From NCBI GenBank assembly GCA_947561395.2, contig OX387186.1:5920835-5984834 (forward strand): DNA of 64,000 nucleotides, read 5' to 3'. The first letter of the stretch is position 1. The number at the start of each line of letters is the position of its first letter. The translations under genes were made by a program, and so were the position numbers. Source of the stretch: Buxus sempervirens. Taxonomy: Eukaryota; Streptophyta; Magnoliopsida; Buxales; Buxaceae. A model generated the notes under the pieces. It worked only from the letters and a program-made list of their open reading frames with translations, was not told the DNA's origin and did not search any database. This document shows, in pieces, positions 12,114 through 63,397 of the stretch.

Positions 12114-12346
12114 TAGTGGCGGAACCACCTTAGAGCTAGAGGGGGCAACAATTGCCCCCCCCTAAAATTTTATTTTTTAATTTAAAATATATTTTTTTCT
12201 ATATGTTTTAATTGAAGTTTATGTTTTGCCCCCTCTAAAATTTCTGGTTTGCCTCCCTAACTCATTAAAATTTCTATATTTCATGAAAAGTGTTAATTGA
12301 AAATTTTTTTTGCCCCCTCAGATTTGGAGTCTTGATTCCGCCACTG
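12114..12346. mobile_element. hAT-type MITE, CAGTGGCGGA family, 8-bp target duplication
   Basis: 233-bp element. It begins TAGTGGCGGAACC and ends GATTCCGCCACTG, so its termini are inverted copies of the CAGTGGCGGA motif used by many plant hAT MITEs. It is flanked by a perfect CTCGAGGC duplication (12106-12113 and 12347-12354). Inside are AT-rich DNA and GCCCCCTC/GAGGGGGC words near the ends. It is non-coding. Confidence 0.9.
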
Positions 12347-12354
12347 CTCGAGGC

Positions 12355-37063: not shown

Positions 37064-40000
37064 TCAAGATTTCACATACTTATCAACATACCCCTGCAAA
37101 TAAAACATAAAAATGTCATATGCCAGAATAAATTATATTCTAAATTCAAGGCCAAAATTTTCCTTAGATTCATCTAAAAAATCCAACATTACCTCAACAA
37201 GCTTTGCAATTTTAGGTCGTGATGAATAAAGATATTGCTTAGTCAAGTCCAAGGTACTAGGAATCTGATGAGGATGTAACGTGCTAAGGACCTTGTCAAC
37301 TGCTTTTTTCACTATTGTTTTGTGAGCATCTTTGCTTAAATGACCGTCACGCCAAGATGGTTTTATCAGTTCCTTCACAAAGTCCACAAGAGCAGCACGG
37401 AAAATTTTCAGTGACTTTGATTCCTTGCTATGTAAAGCCCCATCTGTCTGGAGTTTAGAATTATGCTCATGATCCATTTCATTCTTGTGTTTACCCCTAT
37501 CTGCTTTATATTCTTTCTTGAACTTTCTCACATCTATTTGATGTCTAGTACTACGATCCAGATCCGCCTCATTGGCTTTTGTGGCATCTATTATATTATC
37601 ATCACCCAGTGAAATCTCTTCATTGGGCACCGAACTTCTATTTTGTCGATCATTTCCAAATGTTGCTACAGGATCAACATCAGAGTGATGAAAACTAGTT
37701 TCCTTTGCATGTGTATTCCTGTGTAAGACACTGGCATCTGAGTGCTGATTAAAATAAAGTAGATGTTTATCAGCGTCATAGCCTTGACCATGGATCCCAC
37801 CTAAACCAGGATCTTCATTTGTCTGTTGACTTGACATACTCTGACCAATTGCCCCTCGACTAAAGGAAGAAACCAAAGAGGATCTGTCCCCCCCATTGGG
37901 TAGCTCAATGCTATCAATAAGAGGATCATATTGGCTTCCTGGAGAAGACACGCTTGGTGGTGTAAAATAAAAAGATGGTCGGAAAGGTACAGACGGTTCC
38001 CAATCATTTGAACAGGACTGTGTTTTATGTCCAGCAGGGAGCAGTGGGTCCACACTAGTATTGGATGGAGGCAAATTTTCAGATTCTGATCTTGAATAGA
38101 ATGGTGAAGCAGAGCTTCGAGGCAAGGAAGTAGATCTAGGAGCAAGATGACCTCTATCAAGGTCCAAAAGTGTTTGAGAACCAAGAGATCCTATAGTTGC
38201 ATAAGATGAAGAATGAGGCAGTGAGGACTCAAGCCATCCAAATTTATGGCTCGACAGTGTAGGCGGACAAGGAAAGCTTGAGTTCAAATTTGGAGAACTA
38301 CTGAATGCAGGTGAAGCATGATCAGTGAGCATAAACTGACCTCGATTTTTTAGACTTCCCACTTCATCAACACTTTTGACATGACTAGAGGGGTATCTGC
38401 TACTTCCATAGCTACTCGGAGATATAACTGAACCATATCTATATTCGGGAAACAAGCTCTTCCCAGCTAATGGATTCCCTATGAGAAATTCTTCACTTAC
38501 TGACCACTTCTTGTCTCCAATATCAGAAAGTTGTTTCAGATCCTCATAACGTGATGCAGTACCAAAAGGCGGAATGTGTTCCTCATAAGAAGAGGACATC
38601 AAATGAAATTCACTAGGATTTTCCGGACAACTCCCGCTAGGGGTGTCAAGTTTAGGAAAATTGAATTGGACACCCGATAAACCATGCTTGTTATCCAGAA
38701 AATGTGATGATGTCAGCTTACGCTCTTCATGAAAGTGATGCCATGTTTGGCCTTCTCTGTGCTCCCAGGGTAGGACCTTTTCTGATGGAAAATGGGACTT
38801 TACAGAAGGATTGCTCACAATTGATGAAGTCAATGGCTCGGTAAAAGAGGCTAATCTTGAAGTCTCAGTACCCTGTTTCAAACCTGATACAGGAACAGGG
38901 TCCAATTAGAAAATTTAAAGTATAACAAAATCTTGGTTATTCACACTCCAGAAAAAACTCAAATACCTGCATCCACCTGGACCTTGTCTTTCCAACTTTC
39001 AACAACCATTTCATCCTTTGTTGACTGGCTGGAATTATTCACACCATCTTTTGGATGAAGAAATCGACATGAACTCCCTTTAATGCACCAACCTCTAGTA
39101 AAAAAGTCACACACAACTGCTTGACGTTTGTTTCGGTCCTCAACTTCAGCACCAGGAGATATACTTCTCACCCTCAGCTGTGAAGCAGGCAAACTGGAAA
39201 ACTTGGAAGTTATTAGTAACTTGTCCAAGTATTAAAGAGGAACACGGATAACAGAAGTTACCACCATAAAAAAATTTATACAGTTCAAAGTTAAAAACTT
39301 TTAGCTGTAATATATGAAAAATTCTATTCTATATCTAACCAGTATCACCACACCTTGATGCCATTTGCTTGAGTTCCTCTCCAGATCTCATGTCAATTTC
39401 CTTAGTTTCTTTCTCAGAATTAAGAATAACTTCAGCCCTGTCACTCGAGCCATCTCTCGTCAGGAAATCAACAGCTACTTTTTTGTCAACTTCAGAGGGT
39501 TTGGAATTGTTAGCATTGACGGAATCACTGTTACATATGTTAGCCTCATTATCACTACAAACACCACCTTGGCCTTTCTGAACATCAATAGAGGCTTTTT
39601 TCTCTGGAGAAGCTCCGATGTGCTTGTTATCCAGGGGAGATTCTTGAAATCCATCATCTTTAAAATGTTTACTCTTGATTCCTTGTATTGAATCTCCAAT
39701 ATTTGCATCATTTCCATTATTATCTTCTACATCACATGAATCCGATGGTGGACTCGCCTCAGATTTTTCAGGAGCATAAGAACCCGACCTCAAATCCTCA
39801 TCATGATCCTCAGACTCGGCATCTTGGCTAACATCTACATGGAAGAATAGGAAAATCAGGAAACGAATTGAAACAATCATGTTCTCTAAAGAAATTGCTG
39901 CAGCCAAAATATTACACAATTTCACGACATGTGCCCCTTCTGAAAGAAAACGAGGGAGGATTAGAAGAGAACTGAATCTAGAAGACTTAAAGATGACACT

Positions 40001-43000
40001 ACAGAGTCTATCCTAGTAACTTAGAACTGGATCGCCTAATGTAGAGGTATTTCAATCCAAGAAACAATTTGAACAATCCAACTGCTATAACTTAAGATGT
40101 CTGGAAACTTTTTATCATCAAACTGAATTAGGAATGGCAATGTGTTTGTTCAGGTCAATGGGTTATCAAGTTGGAAATGACCAATCTGAACCCCCAACTC
40201 AGTTAAAGGGAGACCAAACCTAACCCACCAATTTTAATTGCCAAACTTCCTTTTTTATCTTTTAATTAATAAAAATCACATTATATAACTACTATGTAAA
40301 TTTCCAAAACTGGAAAAAAAACAAAAATAAAACAATCTATCTCCAGTACTATTACTTTTTTTTACTTTATTTTGTTTTACTTTATTTTTCTACAAACTAA
40401 AGCTTTTGTTCTAAAACACTGATAAGCTACAATATCTATTATTTAGTATTCAATGATGAACAGCACTCAAAGACCCTCATTTTAAGGTGGGTTAACCCAA
40501 ATCCCACTTGCTTATTGATAGTTTGAATGAAGCTCAACCCCAACCTGCTCAACAGGCCATCAAACCGCACCCACCCAAACAAAAGGCAAGTTCATGCACA
40601 TTCTAAGAGACATGCTTTTATGTCTTGGACAAAGTCCAAATGTATTGCCTGATGTGCCAATTTCAAGAGCAGAGAATGAGTAATCTATACCAAAAGGAGG
40701 GAAAAAAACCAGCAAAAAACGGAAAGAGTGTTGATTATTTTCAAGCAAAATCCTCGCATATTGACAATGTGACTCAACATTTGAGTTGGATAAGGGTATT
40801 TATTCACTAATTTCTTCGGTAACTCAGAAAACAAACTTTGGAAGACATTAAGGAAAGAGGTTTAAAGTTTTGGCTTTGGATCAATTTGCAACCCCTCAAA
40901 AGATAAAATTTTCTAACTCAGTCAATACATATTGAGTACTGGTTGGACCTATGGAAAATACAAGTATCATAAAGTATAAGTTGACATCTTTACCGAAAGG
41001 TTCACATCAGCCCTCTTAAAAACTGATGCATTTCAACCAAATCTATAATTTTCAGACCAAAATTTTAACCCTTGTAGGAAAGCACCAATCATGATATGTC
41101 TACATGTTTTTACTTTAAATAATAAAAACTTCAAAGATTTTCAAATACCAACTCCAACCATCAATTTTTGCCTAATTTTCCTTCTTTGGTTTAATAGGCG
41201 GGTTCATTTAGATTCGAAGATCGAGATAGGGGTAAATTTGAATTCAAGCCTCCAAATCTGAATATATTGTATGGATGGGGTTTTTATCAACCCATCAATT
41301 CCCCAAAATAAATTCCATAAGGACTTCAACTTCAAGAGTTCTAGCAAGTGAGCTGAATGCCTCATTCAGTCATGTGAATGAACCCAAGATCAAGATGGGG
41401 GTAAATTTGAATTCAAGTCTCCAAATCTTAATATATTGTATGGATGGGGTTTTTAACAACCCATCAATTCTCCAAAATAAATTCCATAAGGACTTCAACT
41501 TCAAGAGTTCTGGCAAGTGAGCTGAATGGCTCATTCAGTCATGTGCCTAGAGAAGCCAACTCTATTGCAGATCGGTTAGTCAAGCACGGGACATCAAGAG
41601 CAAACTTACACATACAGGCTCCATCTAGGGAGACTATGGAGTTGTGTGGGGTTTAGGGATTTTTTGTTGCACGGACTATCTTGGTTTTATAGGTGTATAT
41701 ATCTCATTAGGCAGCTGAGGTTTGTTAGTGTGCATTTGTTATTGGATTAGGTATTGGTACTGCGGGTACATCTTGCAAACCCCTATTGCTTATGTATATT
41801 CCACTATTCTTGATTTAATATACTTTACGATTCATCAAAAAAAGGGACTTCAACTTCAAAATAATGGGATTTGAAGCAACCTTTTCTAAAGTGTTATAAC
41901 AATTTTAAAAAAAAAATCCAAATTTTTTTATTTCCTCTCGAAAACTTAATTGCGACTCATGAAGCGAGACAATGTCTTAACTCCATTGATGAATGTGTGA
42001 AACCCTAACACAAGTTGCGCAACTTTATTCCATGCCTTAGTAAATCCATTGATACAACCTTCAGTTTCTTATGAACAAATTATTGAAGTAACAGGATAAT
42101 AAAATGCCTTACCTCAGCTAGCTAGGGTTGGGCAACAAAAATCCTGGTACACCATCCCAATTTATAAAAATAATATCTTAAATCAGATTGAGTATCCATA
42201 TTCTTTCTAGTTGACTCCATCCAGGTTCTTTTTTATTGTTCTCAAGCCTTTTTATATCCTTCAATGTACCTCCCACTAATTCTCACAAATCACAATCGCA
42301 TCCCTAAGTCTCCACTTTGGAATGGCCAACCCAGTTTAACCTACTTAATTTTCACCTATTTGAGCAACACCAAGAAACTCGTAAATATGTTAATTTCCCG
42401 ATATTTCCTGTACATCTGATTACAAGGATAATTTCTTTGTACAAAGTGGGAGCGAAAATAGGTTATGTTTGGATCCAACAGGTGCGGGAATGACAAAAGC
42501 AATGTCTTTTTAGAGACAAGTAGAAAAGTGTTAAGTATCAGGGCAAGAGAATTCTCTCTCACCGCCTTTATTCCCTTTTTCTTTTTGGGTTAAGGCTTTG
42601 AGTAGGATGGTTTGTCAGGCAAAAGAAAATGACCTTAACACAAAGATCTCAATTGGAAGTGAGACAATCAATAATTCAATTTCAGTTGGCGATATTATTT
42701 ATTTCATGATGCTATTCATTTTCACTTTACGGTGTTAAACGTCCCACAAATGCTATGAGGCAACATCTATACTACCATTAGCCATCCCTTAAGAAAATTT
42801 GGGACAAACCACAAATGCTGTGAGGCAACATCTATACTATCATTACTGATCAAAAAAAGAAAAAAAAACATCTATGCTACCATTAGCTGTCCTTCGAAAA
42901 AATTTGATATTTCGTCCCATCCCCTCCTCCATATAGCTCGTATTTCTTACACCAAATATCCTAGCCTTTTGTTTATCCATCCTATCTCCCTTCAAGAACC

Positions 43001-46000
43001 AGTATCTTCTTTGATTCTTTCACATCAAGAATAATACTCACTTCAAGGAAAGGTTCTTCTTTTCCTGCACTCACCTGAACTCTTCTTCATTCGATTTGTT
43101 TAATATTTATAAAAGTGTTTTCAACTTTTGCAAAAAACAAACAAATTCTTCCATCTAATCAAACTCAAATAACAGTCATTGAATCTTGTCCAAGAATCCA
43201 TTAATCCCAACCAGTATATCTTTGAATTTAAAAGAGGCCACTCATTGTAGCTTCCACCACCAACAAAACTGGGCACATATTCAAACGTTGACAAACACAA
43301 AGCTTTAAGAAGATCTGTAAGATTTTCTCTTTTCATAATCTCAAAGTTAGAGATCTGCTGAGCTTGGAGAATGACAGAGGCTATAGATTATCAGAATTAG
43401 TGAATATGTTCCTACTAAAGGGCAAATCCACTTGTTTATTTATATTATTTAAAATGGAGAACTCTTCCATGCCATGGTTTAAATATCGATATATCCCTTA
43501 ATATATTTATACATATATATATATAACGATATCAATATTTCAAACCATGCAACATGCTCGAAAGTCTTCTGCACTCATATGCTGTCTTAAAAGAAAGCAT
43601 TACTTTGTCAAAGTCACTGTCTGTGCACCATAATTACTCCCAACTGGATAAACACCACCAAGCTCATACCATATTATACTCTTTAACAATTTTGTTCATT
43701 AGAGAGACAATACTCTTAAGTCTTAACACAGACAATGTAGAATGATCCTCCAAGTCATATTACAGAAACAATATGAACACAAACCACCCTACAATTCCAC
43801 ATCGTTAAGATACTTACCTAATCTCTTCAGATGAAAAAAAAATCCTACCATTCACAAAAATGGTTGCCTCATTTCTGGTACCATCTTGTTATTAGAAGCA
43901 TTTAGTTTAGCTTCTTGTGTAAGCAACTGAACAAAGCCATTTCAATCTCAACCAAAACCCCTTCCTTTTCACCTTATACTGTGAGAACCTTATCCAAGTG
44001 TCCTATCACAAATAATAATTGATTGAAAAAATTTGATTTCAAATCTCTCTTCACCTTGACCATAATCTTCCCTTTCTCCTCACACCATTTCTTTCAAAGC
44101 AGGAAAAAGGACCTTAGCATTTTTTTCCAAAGCCCCCAAAAACAAGAAAGAAATTTATTGAACCATATATCCCTTTGCAGGACCCACACAGAAAATTCAG
44201 CTTCTTATTCAACATCACAATGCACCCTGGGGACCTCCAGTACTCCACTGGTTCATGTGTCACACGTGCCAGGAGATGAACCTTCCTGCTCTCTTCTTCT
44301 TCTTCAGCACCATCTTCTCTTATACTGTGCAGGTGAAGAAGAGAGAACCACATAAAAGCTGCAATAAAAGATGCAGAAAGATTCTGTTCTCCCTCTTTCA
44401 TTTTTTAGCTCTCTTCCTCTAAGATCCTCCCTTTATCCTTCTGTAATACTCTCCATCCCACAGATTATCTCCCTTCCTCTCAGATCTATCCACTTATCAT
44501 TTTTTCCTCCCTTTTCTGTCACTTCTCTTTTTTCCACTGTTTTTGACATCACAGCTGTATTGTGAGTGCACTTTGTTACACCCTGGCAGCATCATAATCC
44601 TCCTTTTTTTGGATGAATAATGAAGATCAATGTACAAGATCAAACTCCGAAGAGTCTAACTCAGAAGAAGAAAACAGAAGGCAACAACATAGTACCACCA
44701 CCATCAAGTGACCTCTCCCAACATCTCAACCAGCACCTCACCCAAAAAAATTACTCTATACCCACAAGTGTCATAAACACAGGAACCAACAAAAAGACTG
44801 GATCAATTAACTTATGCTTTTGCCAAGAAATCAGCTATCTCATTACCCGATCTAAGAACATGATTGAACGAGACGTTCAATGAAGAAGCTAAGGATCGAG
44901 TTCTTCTGATCATATATCTCATCTTCCATGGGCCTCACGTCTTCTTTTTCATCCAGCTAAACACTGTTGCAGAATCTCCTTCAACTATAAAATGGTGGTA
45001 GCCCTTCCTCCTTGCCAAGGATAAACGCATGATAACTGAAAGGCTCTCTGCCTTAAGAGCATCACCCACCCCAACTGAACTGCTAAACAAGAATAAAGTT
45101 TGGCCCAAATGATTCCTTAGGATCCCACCAATGCCCGAAGCACCTATATCTCCCATAGAACTACCATCCATATTAAGCTTCAGCACTCCAACCTGTGGAG
45201 GACTCCATACCTCTCCTCTCCCGGTGATTGGTGGTGATGAATATGATGTGGCACGCCAATCCCTAAAAATATCGGCTCTAGTGATACCCCGACGACTATC
45301 CAAACCAGATATCCAAGATACAGAGGCTGCCCTGATTGAGTCTAAAACTTCCTCAACTGGTGCAGATATATCTCAAAGATTCTCTTACTATGCTCCTGCT
45401 AAGGCTGTGTTTGAAACCCTGGATTTGGGGAGAAAAGAAAAGAAAATGCTAAAATTTTCTTTTCTCTTGTTTGGTTTAGATGAAGGAAATGAGATTTTCT
45501 CTCCAAATTTTCTCTTCATCTTTCTCTTCAATGTAAAAAATTCTCTCCAAAAAGATAGGAATTTTGAAAGAAAAGAAAATTCACCATCATTTATCACTAT
45601 TCACACCACCCACCCACCCACCCACCCCACCACTAGCACCATCCACCACCACCACCACCCACCATCACCACCCAACACCACCACCCACCATTGCCAAGCA
45701 CAATCTACAACCACCACCACTAGCCGCCGCCACCACCCACTAGGGGTGCAACTCGGGTCGGTTTGGTTCGGGTTGAAGTCAACCCAAGACCAAACCAAAA
45801 ATGCATATAGTCAAACCGAACCGAACCAAACCGATTGAAAACCGAAACTACTAAACTAAAAACCGAACCGAAAATATATAAAAAAACCGAAACCCAAACC
45901 GAACTACATGAAAACTATTCGATTCGGTTCGGGTTAGACCAATATATTCTTATGCTCAAACAAAGGTTTTTTCATAATATCCTTAAAGTTTAAAGGTAAA

Positions 46001-49000
46001 CTTTGAAAGTTTAAAATATATTATATTTTATATATATAAAATATAGATTATATATTATAATATATATATATGAATTCGGTTCGGTTTAACCGAACATGCA
46101 ATCTAAAACCGAACCGACTTAGTTCGGTTTAGGAATTTTTGGACTGAAATTGAACCGAACCACTATAAAAACCGAACCAAAACGAACCGAAGGCGGTTTG
46201 GGTCGGTTCAAGTTCGGTTTTAACCGAACCGAGTTGCACCCCTACCACCCACCCTCACCACCGCCCACCACCCCAATCCATCATTTTACTAAAATATATT
46301 TTTCTTTTCTTATTATTTCTCATCTCATCCAAACATCAGAAAAAGAAAGAAAATCAGTATTTTTCTTTTCTTTTCTCTTCTTTTCTTTTCCTTTTTAGCT
46401 TTCTTTTCTTTTCTCCCCAAATCCAAGGCTCCAAACACAGCCTAAATAAACCATAATATCAAATGACAAACAACATGATGGAGGACTCTACATCTTTTAC
46501 CTAGCCCCTCGAAGAACCACTGGTTGAACAAGTCTAGCACTATAGAGGGCAATACCCACAGCCGTCCAATCTAACCCAAAAACAGATCCAAATCTGCCTA
46601 GAGAAACACAGTGTAATAATATGTGCTGTATGGATTCCTTACTTTTCCTGCACAAGAAGCACACACTAGGAGACAAGGCCATCCACTTCCTTTTTCGTTG
46701 AAACACATCCACTAAACTTACCTTGGACAATAGCACAGTCCAAACAAAAACTTGGATTTTGGGAGGGACTGGATGGAACCAAAGGTAAGGTGTCGGCTTC
46801 GACTGGGTGTTGAACAAAATTATGGAGATTAGCATTTGTCTGGGTGTGTCTTCCAATGGTTTTTAGTAGGAAGCCAAGGCGTTATTTACGGCCACAGAAA
46901 TGCAGCACACTAGGAATTCAAAATTTAAAGAGAAATACTGAGAGAGAGCTTCAGAAGTTAGCTTGGTCTATCCAGGACAACAATAGAGAAGTGGGATGCT
47001 AATCTAGCATGAAAGCTAGGAGATGGACATTAATTTCTCATGAAGCTTAAAATGTTATCGTGGAATGTTTCGTCGTTTAAACGCGGTAGAGAAGGACTCG
47101 ATGAAGAATGCCATCAGGTTTTGGAATTAAGATATAAATCATATTGCAGGAATCTAAGCTGGAAGTGGTGGGTAAAAATGGATTGGGGAGTTTTTTTTGT
47201 TTTTTTGTTTTTATCGGTAAAACAGTATGTATATATTGATAATAATAGAGAAAGAAGAAAAACATAGTTTATGGTACACAGACAGTGTACCAAACAGATA
47301 CAAATCTAAACGGGAAGCCCATCCATAGTCAAAACAAGAAAGCCTTCCTCAACCCCTCCCTATTCTAAGAAGGACAATTTGCCCAAAAATTCTTCATAGT
47401 TGATGCCGTCCATCGAAATATAAGCTGCCAACCAACTTTGGATTAGACTTAAAACCTTCTTGCCCAAGACTTCGACCTTTAACTCTGTATTTCTGAAGAT
47501 CCTTCTGTTCTTTCTCCCCAAGTCACCCACGCTATTGCTATTGGTGTAACATTCCACGCCATGATCCTAATAGATTTCCCTTTCAACATTCCCCATGTTT
47601 CTACAACTATTCCAAAGCTTCTTGGTTGCACCCAAGGAATCCCGAACTTAGCTATAATCTCATTCCATAGCTTCCAATCCTCTATGCAATAAACAAGTAG
47701 GTGGTCTATATTTTCTTCATCCCTCTTACACATAATGCATCTATTTGGTAGATGCCATCCTCTACTCTTAAGATGGTTTACTGTTAATATCTTATCAAGA
47801 GCTACCACCCATATGAAAAAAACCACCTTGCTTGGTAAGAATTTGGACCAAATCACTTCATACCCTTTGAAATTACTTCCTGTAAGAATCATTGACTGAA
47901 ATGCTGATTTGACTGTAAAGAATCCTGATTTCCCTTTAATCCACTTTCTAACATCTTCCTCCCAGCCCACTTCAATACTATATATGTCCTGCATAAGCTC
48001 TTCAAACTTGTCTAATTCCCAATCTAGGAGGTTTCTTCTCAACACTAAATTCCACGAGATTCCAGCTTCAGTTGTAGCAATTAAATCACTAATGAAAGCG
48101 TGTTTATCCCTGCAAATGTTATAGATAACCATGTACTTTTCCTTCAGCCTCTCGTTTCCACACCATAGGTCATCCCAAAAACGAATCCTCCTTCCATTAC
48201 CAACTAAAAATCTGCATTCTCTTTCAACCGAGGCAACTAAGTTTCCAATTGGTTTCCATAAACTCGTTCTGATGGAAGAATTGGATTGACACAGACACCA
48301 GCCCCCCTTCGATGAACCGTACTTGAAGTCTTGAAGTGAATCACCTTCCTCCATAAGTTATCCAGTTCAATCCCATATCTCCACACACACTTTTTTAAGA
48401 GAGCTTTATTAAAAGTGACTAAGGGTCTCAACCCAAGGTACAGATTTCCAACTTACCCAGTGGTATTTGGCCTCACCTCCCAGTCCGTCCCACAAAAACC
48501 TTCTTTGGATTTGTTCCAACCGCTTTGCTACTGAGATAGGGATCTTTAGGATAGACATATGAAAGGCAGGAATGCTTGCCAATACACTCTTCATCAGTGT
48601 TAACTTCCCACCTTTTGAGAGAACATTACTCTTCCATGAAGATAGTCGCCTCACCATTCTTTCCACTATAGGGTTCCATACCGTATTCTTCTTGTACCTT
48701 GCCCCTAGAGGGATGCCAAGATAGGAAGTTGGGAGCGTGCCTATTGAGCAGCCCAAAGAGTGGCCAAGGTAGGATATGTTATCCACCTCACCAATAGCAT
48801 ACATCTCGCTCTTTGCCAAATTTACCTTCAATCTAGAGCACGCTTGAAAGCTTATGAGGACTCCCTTTAACCACTAAAATCTATGAAGAGAGGGATCACA
48901 AATAGTCAAGATGTCATCTGCAAAGAGGAGATGACTTATAGATAGGGATTCATGAAAGGATACTCCATCCAGCACTCCAATTTTGGAGGCTCTATCCATC

Positions 49001-52000: not shown

Positions 52001-54331
52001 TAGATAGTGTAATAGTGGCAAATGAGTGTGTAGAGGATTGCATTCCCTCAAGTAGGTCGAGCCTAGTTTTCAAACTAGATCTTGAAAAGGCTTATGATCG
52101 TGTGGAGTGGGGTTTCTTGGAATCTATACTTCTTTGTAAAGGCTTTAAGAGTAAATGGTGCAAGTGGGTAAAAGGTTGTTTTCATAATGTCTCATTCTCG
52201 TTCATCTTCAATGGTCAAGTGGTAGGTCATTGCCCCTCATTTAGAGTTTCCTCTTTACTGTGGTTGGTGGCGTTCTTAGTCGATTCTTGAGTAAGGGGAT
52301 CAGCAAAGGTCTAGCTAAAGGTATTTAAGTGGGGAAGTCTACGATCCCAACATCTCATTCCAATTTGCAAATGACATGATTTTGTTTATGGAAGCCTATC
52401 AAGATAAAGTGTTCTGGGTCAAATGCATTATTAGATATTTTGAAATGTTATCAAGTCTTGAAGTGAATCTTGATAAAAGTAGATTATTGGACATGCATGT
52501 ATAGAGACAAGTTCTATCGGAGTGCACTAAGATGATGGGTTGCAAATCCCAAGAATGGCCAACTTTTTATCTCAGCCTCCCTTTTGGTGCAAATCTGCCT
52601 AAATTAAGCTTTTGGGACCCAATTGCTGAAAATATGGATAAGAAGCTTGTTATCTGCAAATCCGTCTAAATTAAGGAATTTTTTGTCTTTGGGTCGTAGG
52701 ATTACTTCCCTTTTTTTTTTTTGGGTTGGTGTGATAAGTGAAGAAATTTTATTGAATAGAACAAGGGGGATTGATAGAAAGAGAAAGAAAAGGCTACAAT
52801 TAGGTAAGAAAGAAGGGTGCCAAAAGCATGAAGGCACCACTAAGACGAGAAAAGACTAAACATCTAAATAGGAAGAAATATCTCCAAAGGCCAGAGAAGA
52901 GCTAATATCTCCAGCCTTAGCTAAACTATCTGCGAAATCATTAGTAGCCTTGGTAAGAATTTGGATTACCTTGACTAAGGCCTTTTTAGCTAACATTCCA
53001 ATCTACTATTTCTCCTTATTTAGAGCTCCCTTTAGTATCATTTGATGTTGGAAAAAAGTCATAGGGATTTTCTTTGGGAGGGTAGAGAAACCAAGAAATA
53101 CCACTTAGTCTGTTGGGATAAGGTCTGCTTGAGCAAGAGCCTAGGGGTTTTAGGGTTAGGTAACATCTACTTTAGGAATGCATCCCTCCTAGGAAAGTGG
53201 TTGTGACAGTTTGGGGAGGAACATACTGCTTCGAGGCAATATTATCCTGAGCAATTACAGAATACATAGAAATGGGTGTGACATTAACCCTAAGACAAGA
53301 ATACATCATGCTAGCCCAAAGATCACAGAAATTGCCTCTATCTTCCAATACTTGATCAATCTTAAGGTCTGTGCTGGCACCTATTTGGACTTTTGGTCCA
53401 ATCACTGGTGGGGGAGCTCTATTCTTTTTCATGGATACCTCAATCTCTTTCATATCATATTGATATTGGAGCCTCTGGTGTCAAACATCCTTTCTTTGAA
53501 TCCCATGGGTCTTAATTGGAATATTCAATTCCGGCTTAATCTCCACTCAGCAAAAATTAAAGAGTTGGGCTCCTTATTGAAGGACCTTAGTTCAATAACT
53601 CTTAAGCCCAAATTCCCTGATTGCCGCATTTGGACCCTTTCCTTTTGCAGATCCTTCTCTCCAAATTCCTTTTTGAGTGTCTTTGTTTGTCGGATCCTTC
53701 ACCTCCTCCTTTTCCTCCCACTTTTTTGTGGAAGTCTTCAACCCCTCCTAAAGTTAGAGCCTTTATTTGGACTGTGTTTCATAATGAAATCAACACTCTC
53801 GATAATCTTCAAAGGCAGAGGAAGTTTTTAGCTAACTCGCCCAACGTTTGTATGCTATGCCTCAAATATGGGAGTCAATGGATCATATCATGCTCATTGC
53901 GAAATGGCCAGATTCCTATGGTCTTATTTATTAAGGGCTTTAGGGCTGAACTGGGTTTTCCAAGGAGTTTAGTTGACTTCGCATATCAGTGGCATTTTTC
54001 ATTCTTGGGAAGAAAGGGGAGACTGTTTGTTAATGCTTTTTCTCTTTTGACTATTACATGGGGAATCTGGCCAGCTCATAATCAATGTAACTTTGCTGGT
54101 GTGTTAATCACCAATGACAGAATATTAGAGGACATTTTGGCTTCAGCTGTTGTATGGATGCACCTAAGAGTTCTCTCATACTCCGTTGTGTTTTTCCATT
54201 GCTCAACTTTGGTGGGCAGGGATCAACCTCGTATCCGAGTATAGTATGTTGTTACATTGCTCATAGGTATATCTGAGTTCTGCTGTTTGGTTTTTTACTT
54301 TCGCCCATATCTCACAGTTTCTTGTACATTC

Positions 54332-54370
<39 letters not shown>

Positions 54371-57300
54371 ATAGGTTAAAGAGGTTATATGTTATAGTAA
54401 TTAAAATATGACTACTACATTTTAATGAAGTCTTCCGTTGATCATCAAAAAAGAAATCAATGCAGCTAAGAATTCTTGCCACCAAAGATCTTTCTAAAAA
54501 TGAACAAAAGTTCTATTGCCCATACTAATTCTGATATGTGACAGAAAAAAGGCAAAAGCTCAACAATGTGTTCTACAGGTTTCCACTGAAAACCTTCCCC
54601 ACTTATTGAGGTCCAACAAGTATGATCCATTTCATTACTTGCCTTTTAATGACAAATTAATGCCATGAGCAACCTTTATCATTTAAAAACACCAAAGCCA
54701 TCTAGAAATTTGCTTTTGCACTTCTCAACCACCTACTTCCAAATTCTTAACAATTAGAACCATTACCCAAATGCATACCCACATAGTTGGTAAGCCAAGG
54801 AACCACCTCACAACCAAGATATCTGAACATATTGTGATTTTAACAGTGTTCATATTCGTCCTATGCATGCTGTTTTTGGGCAGATCTATATTGAGACCCA
54901 AAATATTCAGAAAATAAGACATCTTTATTGCAATTGTGATAACCTCATCTTATCCTTTCCAATTAAAAGGCCGTTCAACTTGGCAAACTCTTCCACTTAT
55001 CAAAAAGAAAAAAAATTACAAACACTTCCACTCTACACAATACCTGATTAGATCACCAACCAAAATGAAAAATAAAAGGGGACAACAGTCTTATTGCCTG
55101 GGATTTCTACATGAGCAAACAAATCTTTAACTGCCCAACTGATTAAAAAACACATGAATATTTCCAACACAAGAGATCATCCATTTCCTCCATCTTACTC
55201 TAACCCTTCAATTATTGACAGGATTAAGAACCAATCCATCTTATCATAAGCTTTCATTAAACCTAACTTACAATCAACCCTTCAACCTCTTCCACTCATC
55301 CACACATCATTTTATCAATTAACATGCCAACAATTATCTAATGACTCCCATGCACTTTGATTAAGAGTTATAAATAAAAGGGGATCGATGGAATTTCCCA
55401 ATCCTATGTAAATCGGAAAAGCCTCTTGAAGGTTGGGATGTGGTGGCTGGAGCGATGCATTTTCCCCGTTTCATCCCTCTATCGCAATTTTCAGCCATTC
55501 TCTTTATGCAATCTCAGAAGGAGGTGGAGGAATGGTTGCAAAGAGGTGAACTTCGTATTAGACAACTGGTTTTGTCATTTCACCCTTCGATGCCTGGGTA
55601 CTCAGAAGGGGCTGGGATGGGGAAGGAAGGGGGACTATGGATTATAGTTAGAGGGCTGCCATTCCATCTTTGGTCCCTAAAGGCCTTGGAGCTGATTGGT
55701 GACTCGTGTGGTGGCCTAATTTACAAGGGGCGATTCTACTCTGAAGGTCCGTTCACTGGGTGTTTCAAAATAAAAGTGAAGGAATCTCGTGTTCGTCGAA
55801 TCTCAAGATGTATTGGCATTTGGGATGGCTATTTGAACCATGAAGTTCTTATTGAAGTCTGCCAAGCAACATCATTGCGGATGAAGGAAGCAATCTCAAT
55901 ATGTGAGGATGAAGGTGATCTAGGGATGGCTCCACGTGTTCGTTCCTCCTATGCTGATGTTGTCGCACCTTGGAGGATTTCTAGTCCAAAAACTAATCTT
56001 GGTCGCGATGCTGGGTCTAATTCTAGGCCTACTTCAGTGGAGGATTGGGATGATGGGGACGGCGCATTAACCCTTTGGAAAGGGGTGTTAGCGAGCCCTT
56101 TAGGCAATGGGAAGGGTGCTGGATCAGAACCTACAGAATATGTAAATTCCCATCCATCTCCTCCCCCAGCAGATCATTTCCCAATCTCAAACCTGAATCC
56201 ATCAATGGAGATGATCTCTCGTTTGGTGCATGAGTCACTTGAGAGCTGTCGCAAGGGGATTATGCAACAGGTTCAGCAAGTACTTGGAGATCCACTTCGA
56301 AAGTGTGGGAATACTCAGTTGTCTGAAAATCGGAAGAGGAATAAAGAGGGGAATGAAGTGATGGGTTTGCAAGTTGATATGAATTCAAATCAGAAGCCAG
56401 AAGTGGGTGCAGATGGGAGTCTTGCTGCTGGCTGTGGGGAATTAAATGAGCATGTTTCTTCTGAAGCTTTTGGGGCGATATCTCCTCGTCAGGATTGTTC
56501 GCCTAGGGCTACAGTTTTTGAGAAGGGGACGGCATCCTCTTCCATCAGATCTAATGGATTAGGGGATCGAGAGCTCCCCGAATCAGTCCCTTCTCCAATT
56601 CTTCGGGTGGCTGATTCAGAAGAGAGTCCAATCTGTCTGCCCTTGCAAGTGCAGCCAAATGTTTCCTCCCCGCCTTCTCTAAAGTCTCCTTCGGGTAAGG
56701 CATCTACATGGGTCCTATAAAATATTATGGATATAAGCAAAGCGCTGGGTGTTTCTTTCAATGAGTTTGCAGAAGAGGCGATGGCCTTGTTTACAGCCAT
56801 TGAAACTGAAAAGAATCAGAAGACAGGAGTGAACAAGAAGACTGAGAGGGAACTCAACAAACTGTCTTGGTCATTGGCTGAGAACGGGAATCAGTTAGGA
56901 GAGCTGTCCTGTGGCAAGAACAGCGTTAGAATGGGGAAAGCAGTAGTTAAATGATCTTAAAAATTCTTTCGTGGAATGTGAGGGGGCTGAATGCCCAAGA
57001 AAAGAGGGCAGGTGTAAAGATGAGCTTGCGTTTATGGGACCCAGAGGTAATAATATTGCAAGAATCCAAGTTGAACATAGTAGACAACAGTGTTATGGGA
57101 GCAATTTGGTGTTGCCTTGAGGTGGATTGGGTCTTTATCCTAGCGCAGGGGGCATCCGGAGGTCTTATATTGGCATGGAAGAAGTCGAAGTTTCAGAAAG
57201 CTCAAGTATGGATTGGGCATTTCGTAGTTTCAGTTCTGCTCAAGGAAATTTCAGGAAGTGATTTAATTCTTATATCTGGAATCTATGGTCCCAATGATCA

Positions 57301-60300
57301 TTCTAAGACTGGTAAGATATGGGAGGAGCTGTTAGAAGCTAGAGGGATTGGTGGTTCCCCATGGTGTATCGGGGGAGATTTCAACGTAACTAGGTTTCCA
57401 TCAGAAAGATTGGGGGGGAGGAACTTTACTGCAGCAATGAGAGACTTTTCAGATTTTATTAAAAATCAGTATTTGGTGGATGTCCCATTAACAGGCTCTA
57501 AGTTCACTTGGTCTAGAAATCAGCAATGCTCTAGTCTTTCAAAATTAGACCGGTTTCTAGTATCCTTCGAGTGGGAGGTGAAGTTTCCCAAGTTTGTAGC
57601 TTCAGCATGGCCAAGAACACTATCGGATCACTCTCCTATTGTCCTATCTTCCGAAAATGAGTTTCGGAGAGCTTCCCCATTCAGATTTGAAAACATGTGG
57701 CTTGAGGATGAGTCCTTCGCAACCCTTGTAAGTAATTGGTGGGCAGATATGGAGTTTCAAGGCTCCCCTTCTTATATTCTTTCAAGGAAATTGCGTGCTT
57801 TGAAGCTGAAAATAAAATAGTGGAATAGAGATGTCTTTGGAAGAGTAGATGAGAAGCTGGTGGACATCACCTCCATGTTGAAAGTGTTGGATCAGTTGAA
57901 GAGGAAGGGAGGATGGTCTTTCAAGATTGGGTGGAGAAAGAAAGATTGAAGTCGGACTACAAGAAGACGGCTGCCTTATTGGAGATTACTTGGAGGCAGA
58001 AGTCTAGAGCCATATGGTTAAGGTTGGGGGATAAAAATACAAGGTTTTTTCACAAGACAGCCCAAACAAGGGGGAGAAGTAACCTGATCAATCATCTACA
58101 AGTTGGTGGCACCACGCTCCTTGATGAAAAGCAGATCAAGAATGCGTCAGTGGAGTACTTTTCTCATCTATTTGAAGAGAAATAAAGTGTTAGACCCCTC
58201 CTTGATGGCTTGGAGTTTAAATCTTTATCAGATGAACAGAGGTATATGTTGGAAAATAAAGTCTTGGAAGCAGAGGTATTAGAGACGTTAAAAGGCATGG
58301 AAGGTGACAAAGCTCCAGGTCCAGATGGGTTCACTATTGCTTTCTTCAAGAGATGTTGGAGCACTATTCGTGTTGAGTTTATGGACGCAGTCCATGAGTT
58401 TTTTGAATCAGCTAGATTTGAAAAAAATCTGAATGCAACATTCATATCTCTCATTCCTAAAAAAGAGGGGGCATTATCACTAAGAGATTATTGCCCGATT
58501 AGCCTAATAAGCAGGTTCTATAAGATTGTTGTTAAGTTATTGGCAAACCGGCTCCGTAAGGTCCTTCCAAGCATTATATCCCAAACTCAACAGGCATTTG
58601 TGGGAGGTAGACAAATCTCGGATGCAATCATGATAGCTAGCGAGTGCATTGATGCTATCCAGAGGAGCGGAGAGGAGAAAGTATTGTGCAAACTTGACAT
58701 TGAAAAGACTTATGATCACGTAAATTGGAAATTCATATGGTATCTCCTAAGGCGTATGGGTTTTGGGGCCAAATGGTTCAGTTGGATGTCTCTCTGTGTA
58801 TTTTCAGCGTCTTTCTCGATTCTCATTAATGGTGCCCCAGCAGGTTTCTTTGGCTCCTCTCGAGGGTTGAGGCAAGGTGATCCCCTCTCCCCCTTGTTGT
58901 TTATCATTGTCATGGAGGCATTGAGCAAACTCATCGAAAGAGCAGAGTCGATAGGGCTCCTAGAAGGTGTGTCTTTTGGAAATGGTCGCCTCTCTATATC
59001 TCATCTTCTTTTTGCGGACGATGCAAAGATTTTTTGCAAAGCCCAACCAGCTCAAGTGCTGAATGTTAGAGCTTTACTCTTATGTTTTGAAGCTACATCA
59101 GGTTTTAAATTAAATTTGCAAAAAAGTGAGATGTTTATTGTGGGGAGTGGCATAGGAGCAAACGAGCTATGCTGCTTGTTGGGTTGTCGTGAAGGTTCTC
59201 TACCTACTACATATCTTGGAATACCTATTGGGGCGCCTTATAAGTCAAAAGTGGTGTGGGAGCCAGTGATTTCCCGAATGCAAAGGAAACTAACATCTTG
59301 GAAAAGTAACTTCTTATCAAAAGGTGGAAAGCTGACTCTTATTCAAAACTCTTTGGGAAATCTCCCAACTTATTTGTTTTCTTCTTTCGTTTCCCCGGCA
59401 TCAGTTTTGGATAGCCTTGAAAGAATCCAAAGAAACTTTCTTTGGAAGAGTTGGGATGAAGCAAACAAATATCATCTAGTGAGTTGGGAGGAAGTTTGTA
59501 GAGATAAAAAAGGAAGATTGGGTATCAGAAGGTTGCGACTCTTTAATAAGTCCCTTTTATCAAAATGGAGTTGGAGGTATGGGAAAGATCCTACAAGTCT
59601 ATGGAGGAAGCTAATCACAATCAAGTACAACTATAACCCCAATGATTGGCTGGCAAGTCGTGTGAATGGCTGTATTGGGTGTAGCCTTTGGAGGCCTATC
59701 ACTAAATTTTCCTCACACCTTACCTCTTCTTTGAGGTATGAGTTGGGGAAAGGAGATAGAATAAGATTTTGGAAAGATATATGGTGCGGGGAAGAGCCAC
59801 TAAAAGCTAGATTTCTCGATCTCTTCAGCATTACTACTTCTTCGCAGATGTACATTGCCGAGCTATGTTCTTATGATGGGAGTGGATGGAATTGGAATCT
59901 CAATTTCAAAAGGAACCTGTTTGATTGGGAAATTGACTCTCTAGCTCAACTATTAGTGAGCATTCATGGCCATCAGCCGAACTCAAATCAAGATGAGATG
60001 AAATGGGTGGGGAATAGATCAGGTGAGTTTACCGTAAAAGGGTTCTACAATCATCTAGCCAAGAAGGACATTAGATTTATGCTCTCAGATATGCTATGGC
60101 AACCTATTCTTCCATCAAAAATTGGTTTCTTTATATGGACAGCAGCAATGGGGAGAGTATTGACAATACACAACCTCATGAAAAGGGGGTGGCATATCCC
60201 AAACAGATGTGTATTGTGCAAATCTGATTTGGAGTCTGTAAATCATTTGTTTGTCCACTGCAAGGTTGCACACAATTTGTGGTCTGTTATCCTACAAATA

Positions 60301-62721
60301 TTTGGCAAATTATGGGTGCAGCGTAGAGATTTAATTCAAGTGCTACAATCATGGGGTTATAGCAAAAGTGTTCTGAGGTACGATGTACTGTGGAATTTGG
60401 CACCGACGGCTATTCTTTGGGCACTTTGGAAAGAGAGAAACAAAAGAATTTTCGAAGATTCATCTAGTCCCTTTTGGGGTTTAGTACAATCATCTCTTAA
60501 CTTCTTACTGTATTGGGCATCAAGTTCCGAATCTTGTAAAGGTTTGATTCGTCATGAGTTTTTTGAGTGTGGGAACTTTTGTGATTTGTAGGTTGGTTCA
60601 TGTACACCAATCGTGTACTGTCTAGTCTCTGTACTCCTTGCTTTTTTGAGCCTTAATATAATCCTTTTTATTACCGATCAAAAAAAAATATTCAAAGAAG
60701 AGTTTTCAAACGTAAAGACAATGTTGGCGAACATTTTGTATATCTCTTCTCAAGCTAATAGGATGAATGACTTTCAATTATCATCTTTCATAGGGACTAA
60801 AGAGACAAAAGTGGAATTTGTACTCAGATTAATAATGCAACTTTCCCGAAACTCTCCAAAGACCTCCACAGCATTCTCCTCGACAATCTGACAACTCCCT
60901 TGACAAAAGCTATACAAAGCCCACCAAAACTAACAACATTTTCCCCTTGTCAAGATTCTCAATTGATTTATTAACTTGCTCTTCCTCAAATTTTCTTTCT
61001 AACCGTTCATTATGTTTAAAACATAGGCCCTAAAAAGATTTTCCAAAAATATATTCTCAAAATTTGAAAAATACATTTCAAATCAGATTGGAACAGATAT
61101 CCAAATTATTAACACTTCTTTCTTCATCATTTGCAAACTAAAAATCAACTCTCCATTTTCCCAAATGGTGATTAGATTTCTTCCACTCCCATTACATATA
61201 TTACGGATTTACCTCATGTTTCTATCACCCTATTTTAAACATTTCCTCCATAATTTTCGTTACCAAAATTTATTCCATCATAAAAATGATCTTTGACTCA
61301 TTTTTAAGTTCACTGTGTTTAGCTTTTTCCACCTTGTTCAGATTTCTATATTCCTTCACCCTATATAGGGCATTGGTTTGATCCAAATATCTCCTTTATA
61401 AAAAAGTCAACACTCCCAAAAAGATATTTATTCCAATATTTAAGCCTAACACAAAATAAACCCAAGGATTTCATGAAATTGTCACCAGCCCAGTAAATGA
61501 AGTTTCTTTTTAACTAAACTGATATCACTAACTCTTTTAATCCTTCAAAGAAATTCATACGCACTCAGACCTAAAGGGACAAGGACCCACTTGGGGCTGC
61601 ATAGCATGGAACAAGATAAAAAAACGATCCAACATAGATATCTTTTTGGGAGTGTTGACTTTCCCACCCCACAAAGAGTAGGTATATGTCAAGCCTACAA
61701 CAAGCCAAGTTATCCTGAAGTTATATCAAGTAAGATCAATATTCATAAGCATAGTTAAGTCCATCAGATTTATCGTCAACTTATCCTGAAGGTATATGCA
61801 GAATCCGGCCATCCTGATGGCACGGAACGAAATACCACCCCCACAGATCAAAATAGGGGGTTTTGATAACCCATAGGAATCCAACAGATTCTCTTTCAGT
61901 TTTCACCAAAACCGGATACACTGGTCTAATGGACAGATGAGCCCCAAAAAGAATTTTAAAATTACATAAATTCCATCTTAATAACTGGATAAACAACACA
62001 CCACAAAATGACGGCACATCCCTAGAAATATAATACCCTCTCAAGATCAAGACGATAATAGGGGAATCTCGTTAAAAGAGGTGCACATTGAACGCCCATT
62101 TCTTTCACTTTCTCTCTATCTCCTTCATAAGGTCGACGTAGCCCTAAGCCCTAACAAACCACTGGCAGTATTACCATTAGACTTGATTCTTTGAGGGAAA
62201 TTATTTTGATTATTTTAATAAATGCAAATATTGGCATAACTGGGATGTCATTTCTCATTAAACCCCTACTGATCATGAATCTGATTGACAAATCTCATCT
62301 ATAGAGACACACCATATATAACAAAATACTTAATGAAACAGAACTAGAAGAAAAGGAAGAAAACAGAGGATACAAAAAATAGAACTCTTCGCAAAATTTC
62401 AAAGGCAAACAATCAAATCATAAATAAAATTCTCTTTAACCGTTAAATTAACTGACCTTCTCGACCTTCATCAGCTGCCTTAGGGCTCCCTGACGAATCA
62501 GCATTTATTTGTTCTTCGTCTTCACCTTCTTCTTCTTCTGGTTCTTCTTCTGGTTCTTCCTCTTCCTCTTCCTCTTCATCTTCCTCTACCTCTTCCTCTT
62601 CTTCTTCTTCCCCATCTCGGGCTTCTACGTCCTCTTCATCGATTTCGTAATCTGAAACATTGTCGGAGGGCTCGCCGGTCACCGCCATGTCGTCGTCTTC
62701 GGAGACATCGGATGAAGGCAT
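37064..62721 (-). CDS. FES1: FRIGIDA-ESSENTIAL 1-like CCCH zinc-finger protein
   Basis: Predicted join of 62457-62721, 39354-39834, 38967-39193, 37193-38883 and 37064-37093, 897 residues, all phases consistent. Exon 1 is acidic (MPSSDVSEDDDMAV, then Glu-rich). Exon 2 is also acidic (DVSQDAESEDHDEDLRSGS). Exon 3 has one CCCH finger, CDFFTRGWCIKGSSCRFLH (C-x7-C-x5-C-x3-H), after RSISPGAEVEDRNKRQAVV. Exon 4 has NDWEPSVPFRPSF, QYDPLIDSIEL, KPSWRDGHLSKDAHKTIVKK and PKIAKLVE. Exon 5 supplies GYVDKYVKS. This block order matches Arabidopsis FES1, a nuclear factor needed by the FRIGIDA complex to raise FLC and delay flowering. In a genome without FLC control the role may differ. Exons 2-5 are firm. 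Attaching exon 1 across 22.6 kb rests on splice sites, phase and composition, so extra exons are possible. Confidence 0.85.
40132..40570. mobile_element. Candidate degraded hAT MITE
   Basis: The left end TAGGAATGGCAATGTG and the following CAATGGGTTATCAAG and CTAACCCACC words, then an AT-rich core, then GTGGGTTAACCC and CAAACCGCACCCACCC words, resemble the TAGGGATGGCAATG class of hAT MITEs. The right terminal repeat and target duplication are missing. Confidence 0.4.
41215..41553. repeat. Tandem duplication, 169-bp period
   Basis: Two units repeat from GGGGTAAATTTGAATTCAAG through GGATGGGGTTTTTA and AAGGACTTCAACTTCAAGAG to TCATTCAGTCATGTG, with few differences. The unit includes the insertion junction of a LINE tail, so the duplication happened after that insertion. 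Confidence 0.85.
41505..41844 (+). mobile_element. 5'-truncated LINE tail with 15-bp target duplication
   Basis: Contains the end of a LINE RNase H domain (SFSHVPREANSIADRLVKHG), about 180 bases of 3' UTR and CATCAAAAAAA. It is flanked by the exact 15-bp copy GGACTTCAACTTCAA at 41490-41504 and 41845-41859. Truncated 5' end, poly(A) tail and target-site duplication are the marks of LINE retrotransposition. The first unit of the 169-bp tandem repeat has a second copy of its 5' junction. Confidence 0.85.
42725..42900. repeat. Repeats of CATCTATACTACCATTAG around a short A-rich tail
   Basis: AACATCTATACTACCATTAG-like copies start at about 42765, 42826 and 42868. The last two bracket CATTACTGATCAAAAAAAG and an A-run, similar to the 3' terminus of the LINE at 60689. 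This looks like a tandem duplication plus a tiny LINE tail insertion. Confidence 0.5.
45403..46442. mobile_element. PIF/Harbinger (Tourist-like) MITE with TAA duplication
   Basis: Left end GGCTGTGTTTGAAACCCTGG. The reverse complement of the right end reads GGCTGTGTTTGGAGCCTTGG, and both continue ATTTGGGG. It is flanked by TAA (45400-45402 and 46443-46445), the typical Harbinger target duplication. Rich in AAAAGAAAAG runs and non-coding. A hAT MITE (45741-46244) sits inside; without it the element is about 0.53 kb. Confidence 0.88.
45741..46244. mobile_element. hAT-type MITE with 8-bp target duplication
   Basis: 504-bp element, TAGGGGTGCAACTCGGGTCG at the left and CCGAGTTGCACCCCTA at the right, flanked by a perfect CCACCCAC duplication (45733-45740 and 46245-46252). 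Subterminal DNA is full of GGTTCGG/CCGAACC words around an AT-only core. Non-coding. It is the innermost layer of a LINE, Harbinger MITE, hAT MITE stack. Confidence 0.95.
46866..49345 (+). mobile_element. Plus-strand LINE remnant (ORF1 end and endonuclease start), split by another LINE
   Basis: 46866-47000 reads in broken frame as EAKALFTATEMQHTRNSKFK and ERELQKLAWSIQDN, matching the ORF1 end of the LINE at 55405-60689. 47040 onward begins MKLKMLSWNVSSF, the start of a LINE AP endonuclease. The copy is interrupted after 47190 and resumes at 49153 with endonuclease-like pieces (MAVFTYYKEHWGALLC, FLGVYGPSK). It has many lesions and deletions. Confidence 0.75.
47191..49136 (-). mobile_element. 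5'-truncated LINE (minus) with 16-bp target duplication
   Basis: Minus-strand LINE. It starts inside the reverse transcriptase (SVLVNGVAVGFFGSHKGLHQ, SHLLFADDILTICD, TSYLGIPLGARYKK, SWKSNVLSKGGKLTLMKSVL) and runs into the zinc knuckle (LPSKVVFFIWVVALDKILTV, LPNRCIMCKRDEENIDHLL) and a 3' UTR ending in an A/C-rich tail. It is flanked by AAAATGGATTGGGGAG (47175-47190) and AAAATGGATTAGGGAG (49137-49152), 15 of 16 identical. There are a few frameshifts; the RT FADD box is intact but the 5' half is missing. Confidence 0.9.
50050..50205. mobile_element. Small hAT MITE with CGATAC words and 8-bp duplication
   Basis: 156-bp element from CAAGGTTTAAAAACTCGG to CGATACTTAAAACCTTG, flanked by a perfect TTCCAAAG duplication (50042-50049 and 50206-50213). 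It is almost entirely made of GTATCGG/CCGATAC words. Termini and words resemble the ends of the large hAT element at 28512-34395. Confidence 0.92.
52711..52995 (-). mobile_element. Antisense LINE 3' tail nested in the LINE at 51900-54452
   Basis: A T-run at 52711-52722 (minus-strand poly(A)) is preceded on the minus strand by a 3' UTR and the end of an RNase H domain (ATNDFADSLAKAGDI). The host LINE reading (SLGRRIT and then NIPIYYFSLFRAP) resumes on the far side. A target duplication could not be identified. Confidence 0.7.
54334..54367. repeat. TA microsatellite
   Basis: About 17 TA units in the 3' UTR of the plus-strand LINE. It is likely hypervariable. Confidence 0.9.
55405..56954 (+). 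pseudogene. LINE ORF1 (nucleic-acid-binding, DUF4283-like), one nonsense codon
   Basis: The open frame enters from about 55410 (KSEKPLEGWDVVAGAMHFPR) and is open until a TAA at 56718-56720. It continues in the same frame to TGA 56952-56954 (MDISKALGVSFNEFAEEAMA, RELNKLSWSLAEN). The segment PFHLWSLKALELIGDSCGGL and its surroundings match the DUF4283/ORF1 region of plant LINEs. No CCHC knuckle was seen. The stop overlaps the ORF2 start as ATGA. Only one lesion plus a missing 5' end is visible. Confidence 0.8.
56951..60591 (+). pseudogene. LINE ORF2: AP endonuclease, reverse transcriptase, zf-RVT; three lesions
   Basis: ATG at 56951. Endonuclease motifs: ILSWNVRGLN, ILQESKL, GIYGPN, GGDFNVTR, SKLDRFLVS and SDHSPI. 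The RT follows: DKAPGPDGFTIAFFKR, LKGMEGDK, TQQAFVGGRQISDA, CKLDIEKTYDHVNW, GLRQGDPLSPLLFIIVMEAL, LLFADDAKIF, TYLGIPIG and SKGGKLTLIQ. The zinc segment is LPSKIGFFIWTAAMGRVLTI and NRCVLCKSDLESVNHLFVHC. Lesions: TAG at 57818-57820, a frameshift between about 57830 and 57912, and TAA at 58183-58185. All catalytic motifs, including FADD, survive, so decay is recent. Confidence 0.92.
61551..62456. other. Intron sequence next to exon 1, nothing recognised
   Basis: AT-rich. No coding or repeat border is seen other than weak LINE similarity fading out near 61550-61650. Confidence 0.4.
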
Positions 62722-63397
62722 TGGTTTAACCTTCGCGGCCGCTTCGATCTAACTGACAATCGCACAGAAACAGGCGGCGAAATATATCGCCTGGCCTCTC
62801 TCTCTCACTCTCTCTCCACTCTCTCTGATTGTCCCCTGTTACCCAAGAAGGAAGACATTAATTTGAATGCCGGATGCATAATGGAGCCCTGGCCACTAAA
62901 ATTGGGAAAATTGGGCTCGATGACCCTTTATAACTCTGAAGCGGGTGGCGATTATAGCGCACTAGTTCGTGTGCCCTTGCAGATGCAAGCCGTTAGATGC
63001 CATCCGTACCGTGATGTGTGCCACTTTTGGGCAGCAGCACTAGCTGATAGGCGGAGGATCCATAATCCAAATATGGAGCCCACACAGAATGGCTATTTGA
63101 TGAGCCGGGCCGGCTCAGTTACTTTAGGCCCTGCCCAAACTGGGCACAGTCCTGTTTTTTAGCACAGGAATATGCCGTAGCCCAACCAATGAGCATTGGG
63201 CCCAGTTTTTACATACCAATCATCAATGTGAATGGGCCCCTTGGAAAGTGTACCAAACAAAATGTTCAGCTTTCCAAAATAGCCCTTACACATCTAGTGA
63301 GAAGATTTATTAATTAAGAGTATAATGATCAAAACTTATAATCAGTTTTAAAAAACTGTCCTCACCCACGTTATCCCTCTCTCCCATCCTTCTTACA
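62722..63397. promoter_or_regulatory. Promoter and leader of the FES1-like gene
   Basis: Upstream of the ATG at 62721 the coding strand has a GA-rich leader (CTCTCTC repeats on the plus strand at 62797-62826) and a GCGGCCGCGAA stretch next to the start. No TATA box was assigned. From about 63225 the DNA resembles a Helitron 5' region (GGAAAGTGTACCAAAC, CAGCTTTCCAAAATAGCCC). Confidence 0.45.

Follow-up and report, generated by a model that had tools for sequence, protein, structure and literature searches.

A predicted 22.6-kb first intron rich in LINEs in a CCCH zinc-finger gene of Buxus sempervirens

Long first introns filled with transposable elements are a known kind in plants. In rice, 5,809 heterochromatic introns are reported in 4,227 of 37,866 gene models (~11%), with a bias towards the 5' end; many of the loci bearing them are transcribed, and 93 of the 454 genes changed by loss of OsIBM2 had such introns (PMC7145194). 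For grapevine, PMC3058033 counts 2,563 genes carrying 2,697 introns 3-100 kb long, more than 80% of their sequence being repetitive and LINEs a main repeat type; in a comparison of 39 genes, introns 1 or 2 made up over 40% of the large ones. Non-CG intron methylation is described for 109 of 705 Arabidopsis genes with introns longer than 1 kb, and for most of those 109 reduced methylation left full-length transcripts unchanged, while at IBM1 intron methylation goes with the full-length transcript (PMC11265718). Many long introns are also reported for Chloranthus and the magnoliids (PMC8626473).

We describe a further example from Buxus sempervirens, set apart by its host gene and by its richness in LINEs, which lie in both orientations. 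It lies in a 64,000-nt stretch of DNA, hereafter the window (C8:5920835-5984834, within a 676.5-Mb genome of 247 contigs). Like the rice genes with intronic heterochromatin, it has a long transposon-bearing intron towards the gene 5' end; unlike there, where methylation, H3K9me2 and transcripts were measured, our reading is drawn from sequence alone, and species and gene are different (PMC7145194). The interval resembles the large grapevine introns in being expanded by transposable elements with LINEs among them, but LTR retrotransposons are prominent in grapevine, whereas in the Buxus interval the elements identified are LINEs and inverted-repeat elements (PMC3058033). With the Arabidopsis IBM1 intron and its IBM2/EDM2/AIPP1 complex it would share a heterochromatin-bearing intron in a regulatory gene, the heterochromatin being predicted in our case (PMC11265718).

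The gene is on the minus strand. We consider it likely, with a probability of about 0.83, that exon 1 is spliced to exons 2-5 over a first intron of 22.6 kb that grew by repeated insertion (Table 1). Joined, the five exons give a coding sequence of 2694 nt including the stop, with no internal stop codon, for a protein of 897 residues, and all four introns have GT-AG borders. At the junction of exons 1 and 2 (AAG/GTCAGT ... CATGTAG/ATG, the slash marking the splice) both sides are in phase 1, so that the shared codon reads GAA G/AT GTT. An earlier note on this DNA, made from the letters only, had proposed the same exons, phases and splice sequences, and recomputing the joined frame gave them exactly, with all 897 codons open and the two phases matching as it had said. 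Its model, a single gene whose first intron is very long, is likewise the one best supported by the frame, the candidate-exon listing, the codon scores and the genome matches reported below. Most likely, the first coding piece lies far from the remainder because transposons piled up in the first intron.

Table 1. Predicted exons, transposon-derived elements and putative promoter of the CCCH gene, in window coordinates.
Feature	Position	Strand	Length	Description
Putative promoter and 5' UTR	62722..63250	minus		motif scan
Exon 1	62721-62457	minus	265 nt	ATG; acidic N-terminus; phase-1 donor AAG/GTCAGT
First intron, predicted	62456-39835	minus	22,622 nt	
LINE A	~55375-60688	plus, antisense to gene		partial ORF1, endonuclease, RT, zf-RVT
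LINE C	51904-54241	plus, antisense		RT and zf-RVT, strongly degraded
LINE B	47482-49190	minus, sense		RT and zf-RVT, frames broken; 40% identical to LINE A RT
LINE D	44938-46862	minus, sense		zf-RVT 46500-46862; RNase H-type RVT_3 44938-45372
Putative MITE-like element	45403-46442		1,040 bp	terminal inverted repeats GGCTGTGTTTG; TAA on both flanks
Inner inverted-repeat element	~45743-46242		~500 bp	GGGGTGCAAC...GTTGCACCCC; flanks TA or CTA; by eye
LINE E	41505-41844	plus, antisense		short 5'-truncated LINE 3' end, RNase H tail
Exon 2	39834-39354	minus	481 nt	acidic/serine-rich
Exon 3	39193-38967	minus	227 nt	encodes CCCH zinc finger
Exon 4	38883-37193	minus	1691 nt	bulk of protein and most of C-terminal SRI-like domain (putative)
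Exon 5	37093-37064	minus	30 nt	encodes GYVDKYVKS, then stop

Exon 2 has no ATG close to its start and its frame stays open across the acceptor's pyrimidine tract, so without an upstream exon the protein start would fall inside that tract. We listed all minus-strand stretches from an ATG to a phase-1 donor of at least 3 bits, from the window end to exon 2, using an approximate donor matrix with rounded values. This gave 109 combinations with 72 distinct donors. Exon 1, with a donor of 7.6 bits, came fourth by length; the three longer candidates (478, 328 and 280 nt) are all decayed LINE reading frames, which leaves exon 1 as the longest candidate outside such frames, the next one having 190 nt and a donor of 4.0 bits. 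The exon 1 donor is good but ordinary, since 1.4% of 3,282 GT sites score as high with the same approximate matrix, and a phase match at the junction would arise by chance once in three.

Codon usage points to the same exon. We derived a codon table from exons 2-4, exon 1 being held out, and used it to score 120-nt stop-free windows from 62,900 to 37,000. Among 3,620 such minus-strand windows exon 1 ranked first, at 0.65 bits per codon; those wholly inside the interval exceeded 0.25 at three places only (6 windows), with a maximum of 0.29. In part, the score reflects an acidic composition that exon 1 has in common with exon 2. When the acidic tract was removed the other 55 codons still scored 0.46, a value reached by none of the 1,373 minus-strand and 2,987 plus-strand interval windows of 55 codons. 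Speaking against the exon, an antisense reading of it also scored 0.41, in a frame with one stop. Asp and Glu account for 48 of the 88 codons of exon 1, and when all six frames of the window were searched for stretches of 88 codons that lack a stop and contain 40 or more of these residues, only the exon 1 site was found. In the acidic tract, 9 of the 15 departures from the GAA unit are at the third codon position (P 0.03), a bias that weakly favours coding over a plain microsatellite. For CpG, exon 1 has an observed/expected ratio of 1.05 and the first intron one of 0.39, with CpG-rich bins also elsewhere (0.93 at 50001-51000 inside the interval, 1.14 at 9001-10000).

The 676-Mb genome gave a single match to exon 1, both for an exact 30-base pattern and for a protein query, and the gene as a whole gave six matches (14 candidates scored), four being the gene itself and two diverged sister genes. 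None of these six is a second copy or a processed retrocopy showing the exon 1-exon 2 splice; hence there is no second copy to confuse the picture and none to confirm the splice.

Exon 2 could instead be joined to a nearer first exon, for instance a LINE B-derived one at 48804-48477 or, near 40 kb, a small exon that is non-coding, with exon 1 unused or confined to a minority isoform. Open LINE-derived phase-1 candidates do exist, that at 48804-48477 having a donor of 8.5 bits against 7.6 for exon 1, and a long intron in which sense AATAAA is not depleted (see below) could yield truncated upstream transcripts. These candidates are, however, decayed reverse transcriptase sequence, and just before exon 2 there is no coding-like composition other than in scored windows that overlap it (from 39877 onward). 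Moreover, over its final 1 kb the interval has a GC content of 0.34 and a CpG observed/expected of 0.28, and the acidic composition of exon 1 carries on into exon 2. We thus regard a nearer first exon as unlikely and retain 62721-62457 as the predicted first exon.

The interval between exons 1 and 2 holds five LINE fragments, three antisense and two sense to the gene, which bears out the proposal of LINEs in both orientations. It had been described as built of nested retroelements, everything between the exons being transposon debris. The five LINE fragments agree with this, but there is also a nested pair of DNA-transposon-like elements (45403-46442 with ~45743-46242 inside it), to which the earlier note makes no reference, and only 52-54% of the 22.6 kb could be assigned, leaving ~46-48% without an identified element; the assigned part comes to ~12 kb (12,107 nt if LINE D is taken from 44620, ~11.8 kb with the limits 44938-46862). 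No pair of long direct repeats of LTR type was found in the interval, and Rfam gave no match at gathering score. Comparison of the interval with ~66 kb from elsewhere in the genome and the rest of the window returned matches to LINE A (65-66% to locus L009) and a 45-bp stretch, and carries no information on the parts of the interval outside the identified elements.

LINE A is the least decayed piece. It is apparently 5'-truncated, the DUF4283 match of its partial ORF1 beginning at profile position 34; its frame is broken between endonuclease and reverse transcriptase, its 5' edge is approximate and its 3' end is at an A-tract. At least 46 matches to it are listed in the genome, itself included (742 candidates, 40 scored), many of them with the same 3' end, near 60688. 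Among the matches listed, the nearest are 95-97% identical overall, 96% for the nearest near-full-length one and up to 97% for partial stretches. We found no convincing target-site duplication for LINE A, the best being 7 bp. LINE E, on the other hand, has a target-site duplication of 15 bp without mismatch, at 41490-41504 and 41845-41859, although its RVT_3 match (E 0.0048, 17.3 bits) does not reach the 21.6 bits that Pfam requires. At 41217-41545 a stretch of 169 bp is duplicated in tandem (95% alike); this duplication spans the 5' edge of LINE E together with its target-site duplication, and hence probably arose later than the LINE E insertion. The two halves of LINE D are separated by the 1,040-bp element, which we take to be MITE-like, and putatively Harbinger-like. 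A further small inverted-repeat element lies near 50050-50215 (by eye).

The decay of LINEs B, C and D also bears on whether the gene still works. Had the insertions cut off exon 1, this would give a short orphan transcript and exons 2-5 would be silent. Such a break would be in keeping with the very long intron, the many insertions and the stop at 62445 in the unspliced exon-1 frame (92 codons). Exons 1-5 are nevertheless open and their splice sites intact, unlike the decayed frames of these three LINEs. Selection has thus apparently maintained the exon frame since those insertions, and the gene seems to have been kept functional through the expansion; nor was a replacement second copy found among the six genome matches. 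We accordingly hold a broken gene to be very improbable. That the interval length is an artefact of assembly or haplotype, with repeats such as LINE A misplaced, is conceivable for a multi-copy element with listed relatives at 95-97% identity and no clear target-site duplication, but hardly credible given that the window is part of a contig of 51 Mb, that the closest LINE A copies listed differ by 3-5%, sufficient for long reads to place them, and that LINE D is cleanly nested and the LINE E target-site duplication in place.

In the preferred reading of one gene with a long first intron, transcription would start near 62.9 kb, at a promoter immediately upstream of exon 1, and run through the whole block, and splicing from 62457 to 39834 would yield a single-CCCH-finger protein of 897 residues. 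The intron would have grown by insertion of the degraded and apparently older LINEs B, C and D, of the putative MITE-like element into LINE D and of the second inverted-repeat element into that one, with LINE E and the multi-copy, less decayed LINE A adding further to it. We infer that the 62457-39834 splice does occur, as predicted from the frame and the junction. The predicted intron is long, promoter-proximal and transposon-bearing, as in genes with heterochromatic introns, and it may itself be methylated or heterochromatic. As a sequence proxy, CHG has an observed/expected ratio of 0.76 in the intron against 1.08 in exons 2-5, with 1-kb bins that vary widely, and this depletion would fit past CHG methylation; CpG observed/expected in exons 2-5 (0.36) is like that of the intron. 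Sense-strand AATAAA is not depleted in the interval (26 observed against 18.1 ± 4.5 expected), which makes premature transcript ends within the intron plausible.

Readthrough of the intron may need or use factors of the IBM2/EDM2 type. The earlier note had gone further in holding that transcription through such a block usually needs heterochromatin-tolerant processing; in the rice and Arabidopsis accounts dependence is possible but is not the rule (PMC11265718, PMC7145194). We also considered that the LINE block might be a working regulatory device like the IBM1 intron: its heterochromatin would set the ratio of full-length to prematurely ended transcripts of a factor whose own SRI/SCAF-like domain contacts the tail of elongating RNA polymerase II, and the gene would thus sense readthrough of silent chromatin. 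This we regard as far-fetched. If the gene is spliced as predicted, it would offer a natural test of readthrough over more than 20 kb in which LINEs lie both sense and antisense to the gene. Long introns filled with transposable elements also split genes in automatic annotation, as in grapevine, where 188 EST clusters each hit several annotated genes split by a large intron (PMC3058033), and a gene finder could easily miss the acidic N-terminus of the Buxus gene.

A motif scan upstream of exon 1 found TATAAA at 62932, a GA-rich leader, and GGCCCA/TGGGCY motifs at ~63238-63179 and 63082; we take the first of these to be TATA-like and the last to be Site II-like. Because 51 Site II-like motifs occur across the whole window, single ones weigh little and the cluster is only suggestive of a promoter. 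Further upstream, and divergent from the gene, a plus-strand frame at L014:3228-4628 (~67.2-68.6 kb in window coordinates; 466 residues from stop to stop) resembles a tandem-CCCH zinc-finger gene, the motif being recognised by eye.

The predicted protein has an acidic N-terminus, a CCCH finger, a long middle part free of Pfam matches and a C-terminus common with the two sister genes. Pfam finds one CCCH finger in a single stretch (zf-CCCH, residues 275-297, 26.3 bits against a cut-off of 20.5), with the spacing C-x7-C-x5-C-x3-H as read from the sequence, and the best match of the full protein in a PDB sequence search was to the zinc fingers of CPSF4 (E 5.7e-5). The gene had been called a FES1-like flowering regulator, FES1 proteins being said to begin with an acidic segment; we take the name as a putative one suggested by the single finger, and regard the gene as probably related to a flowering regulator. 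Like FRIGIDA-ESSENTIAL 1 (AtC3H27/AT2G33835) it has one CCCH finger, but that protein has 587 residues against 897 predicted here, and the entry for it in PMC2267713 does not use the word acidic.

The sister genes lie on C4 and C10. Their matches to the protein cover residues 558-888 and 808-887, their zinc fingers align too in a laxer comparison, and the intron preceding exon 5 has the same position and phase in both (by eye). With two diverged sisters that have the C-terminal domain in common, the gene belongs to a small group of CCCH genes. The three copies of the domain are at 37193-37450 (minus) in the window, L010:7374-7628 and L013:6539-6793, all in CCCH-type genes. We rejected candidate acidic exons upstream of the sisters, since the weak matches (12,194-12,404 of the C4 concatenate, best E 7.8e-4, and 20,695-20,787 on C10, with low-complexity and composition corrections off) were opposite in strand to the sister gene.

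The C-terminal domain may have an SRI/SCAF-like fold, a three-helix one in the SRI case. Set2 SRI domains took its first two PDB rows, but unrelated chains ranked level with them. Of the three sister domains, two matched SCAF11-like_C weakly (best E 0.0012), the window's own member giving no match and the full C10 protein reaching 14 bits, under the cut-off of 27. Against SRI/SCAF family models the C-terminus had no match above cut-off, and PDB sequence searches returned a single irrelevant chain (E 1.1), and likewise with the three-member alignment (E 0.36). In a scan of viral contigs for relatives of the C-terminus, neither of two pattern matches was confirmed. In other proteins the SRI/SCAF-like fold binds the RNA polymerase II tail, and such binding would be suggested here if the fold is real; its presence in three CCCH-type genes would then link a FES1-type protein directly to transcription, which would be the more general lead. 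Our literature searches gave no link of the SRI domain with FES1 or of Set2 Rpb1 interacting with FRIGIDA, and for the SRI domain with CCCH only a fungal methyltransferase.

Elsewhere in the window, a hAT-like element at 29328-32601 (plus) has its BED finger and DUF659 spread over several separate frames. Two open frames that look like host genes, at 13477-14196 (plus) and 15872-16837 (minus), have no Pfam matches; the latter may resemble part of a bHLH-N/RSS3-type protein. Related repeats of 38-117 bp, rich in ACCC/GGGT and partly inverted, occur at 20551-20904, 32475-32568 and 33552-33693.
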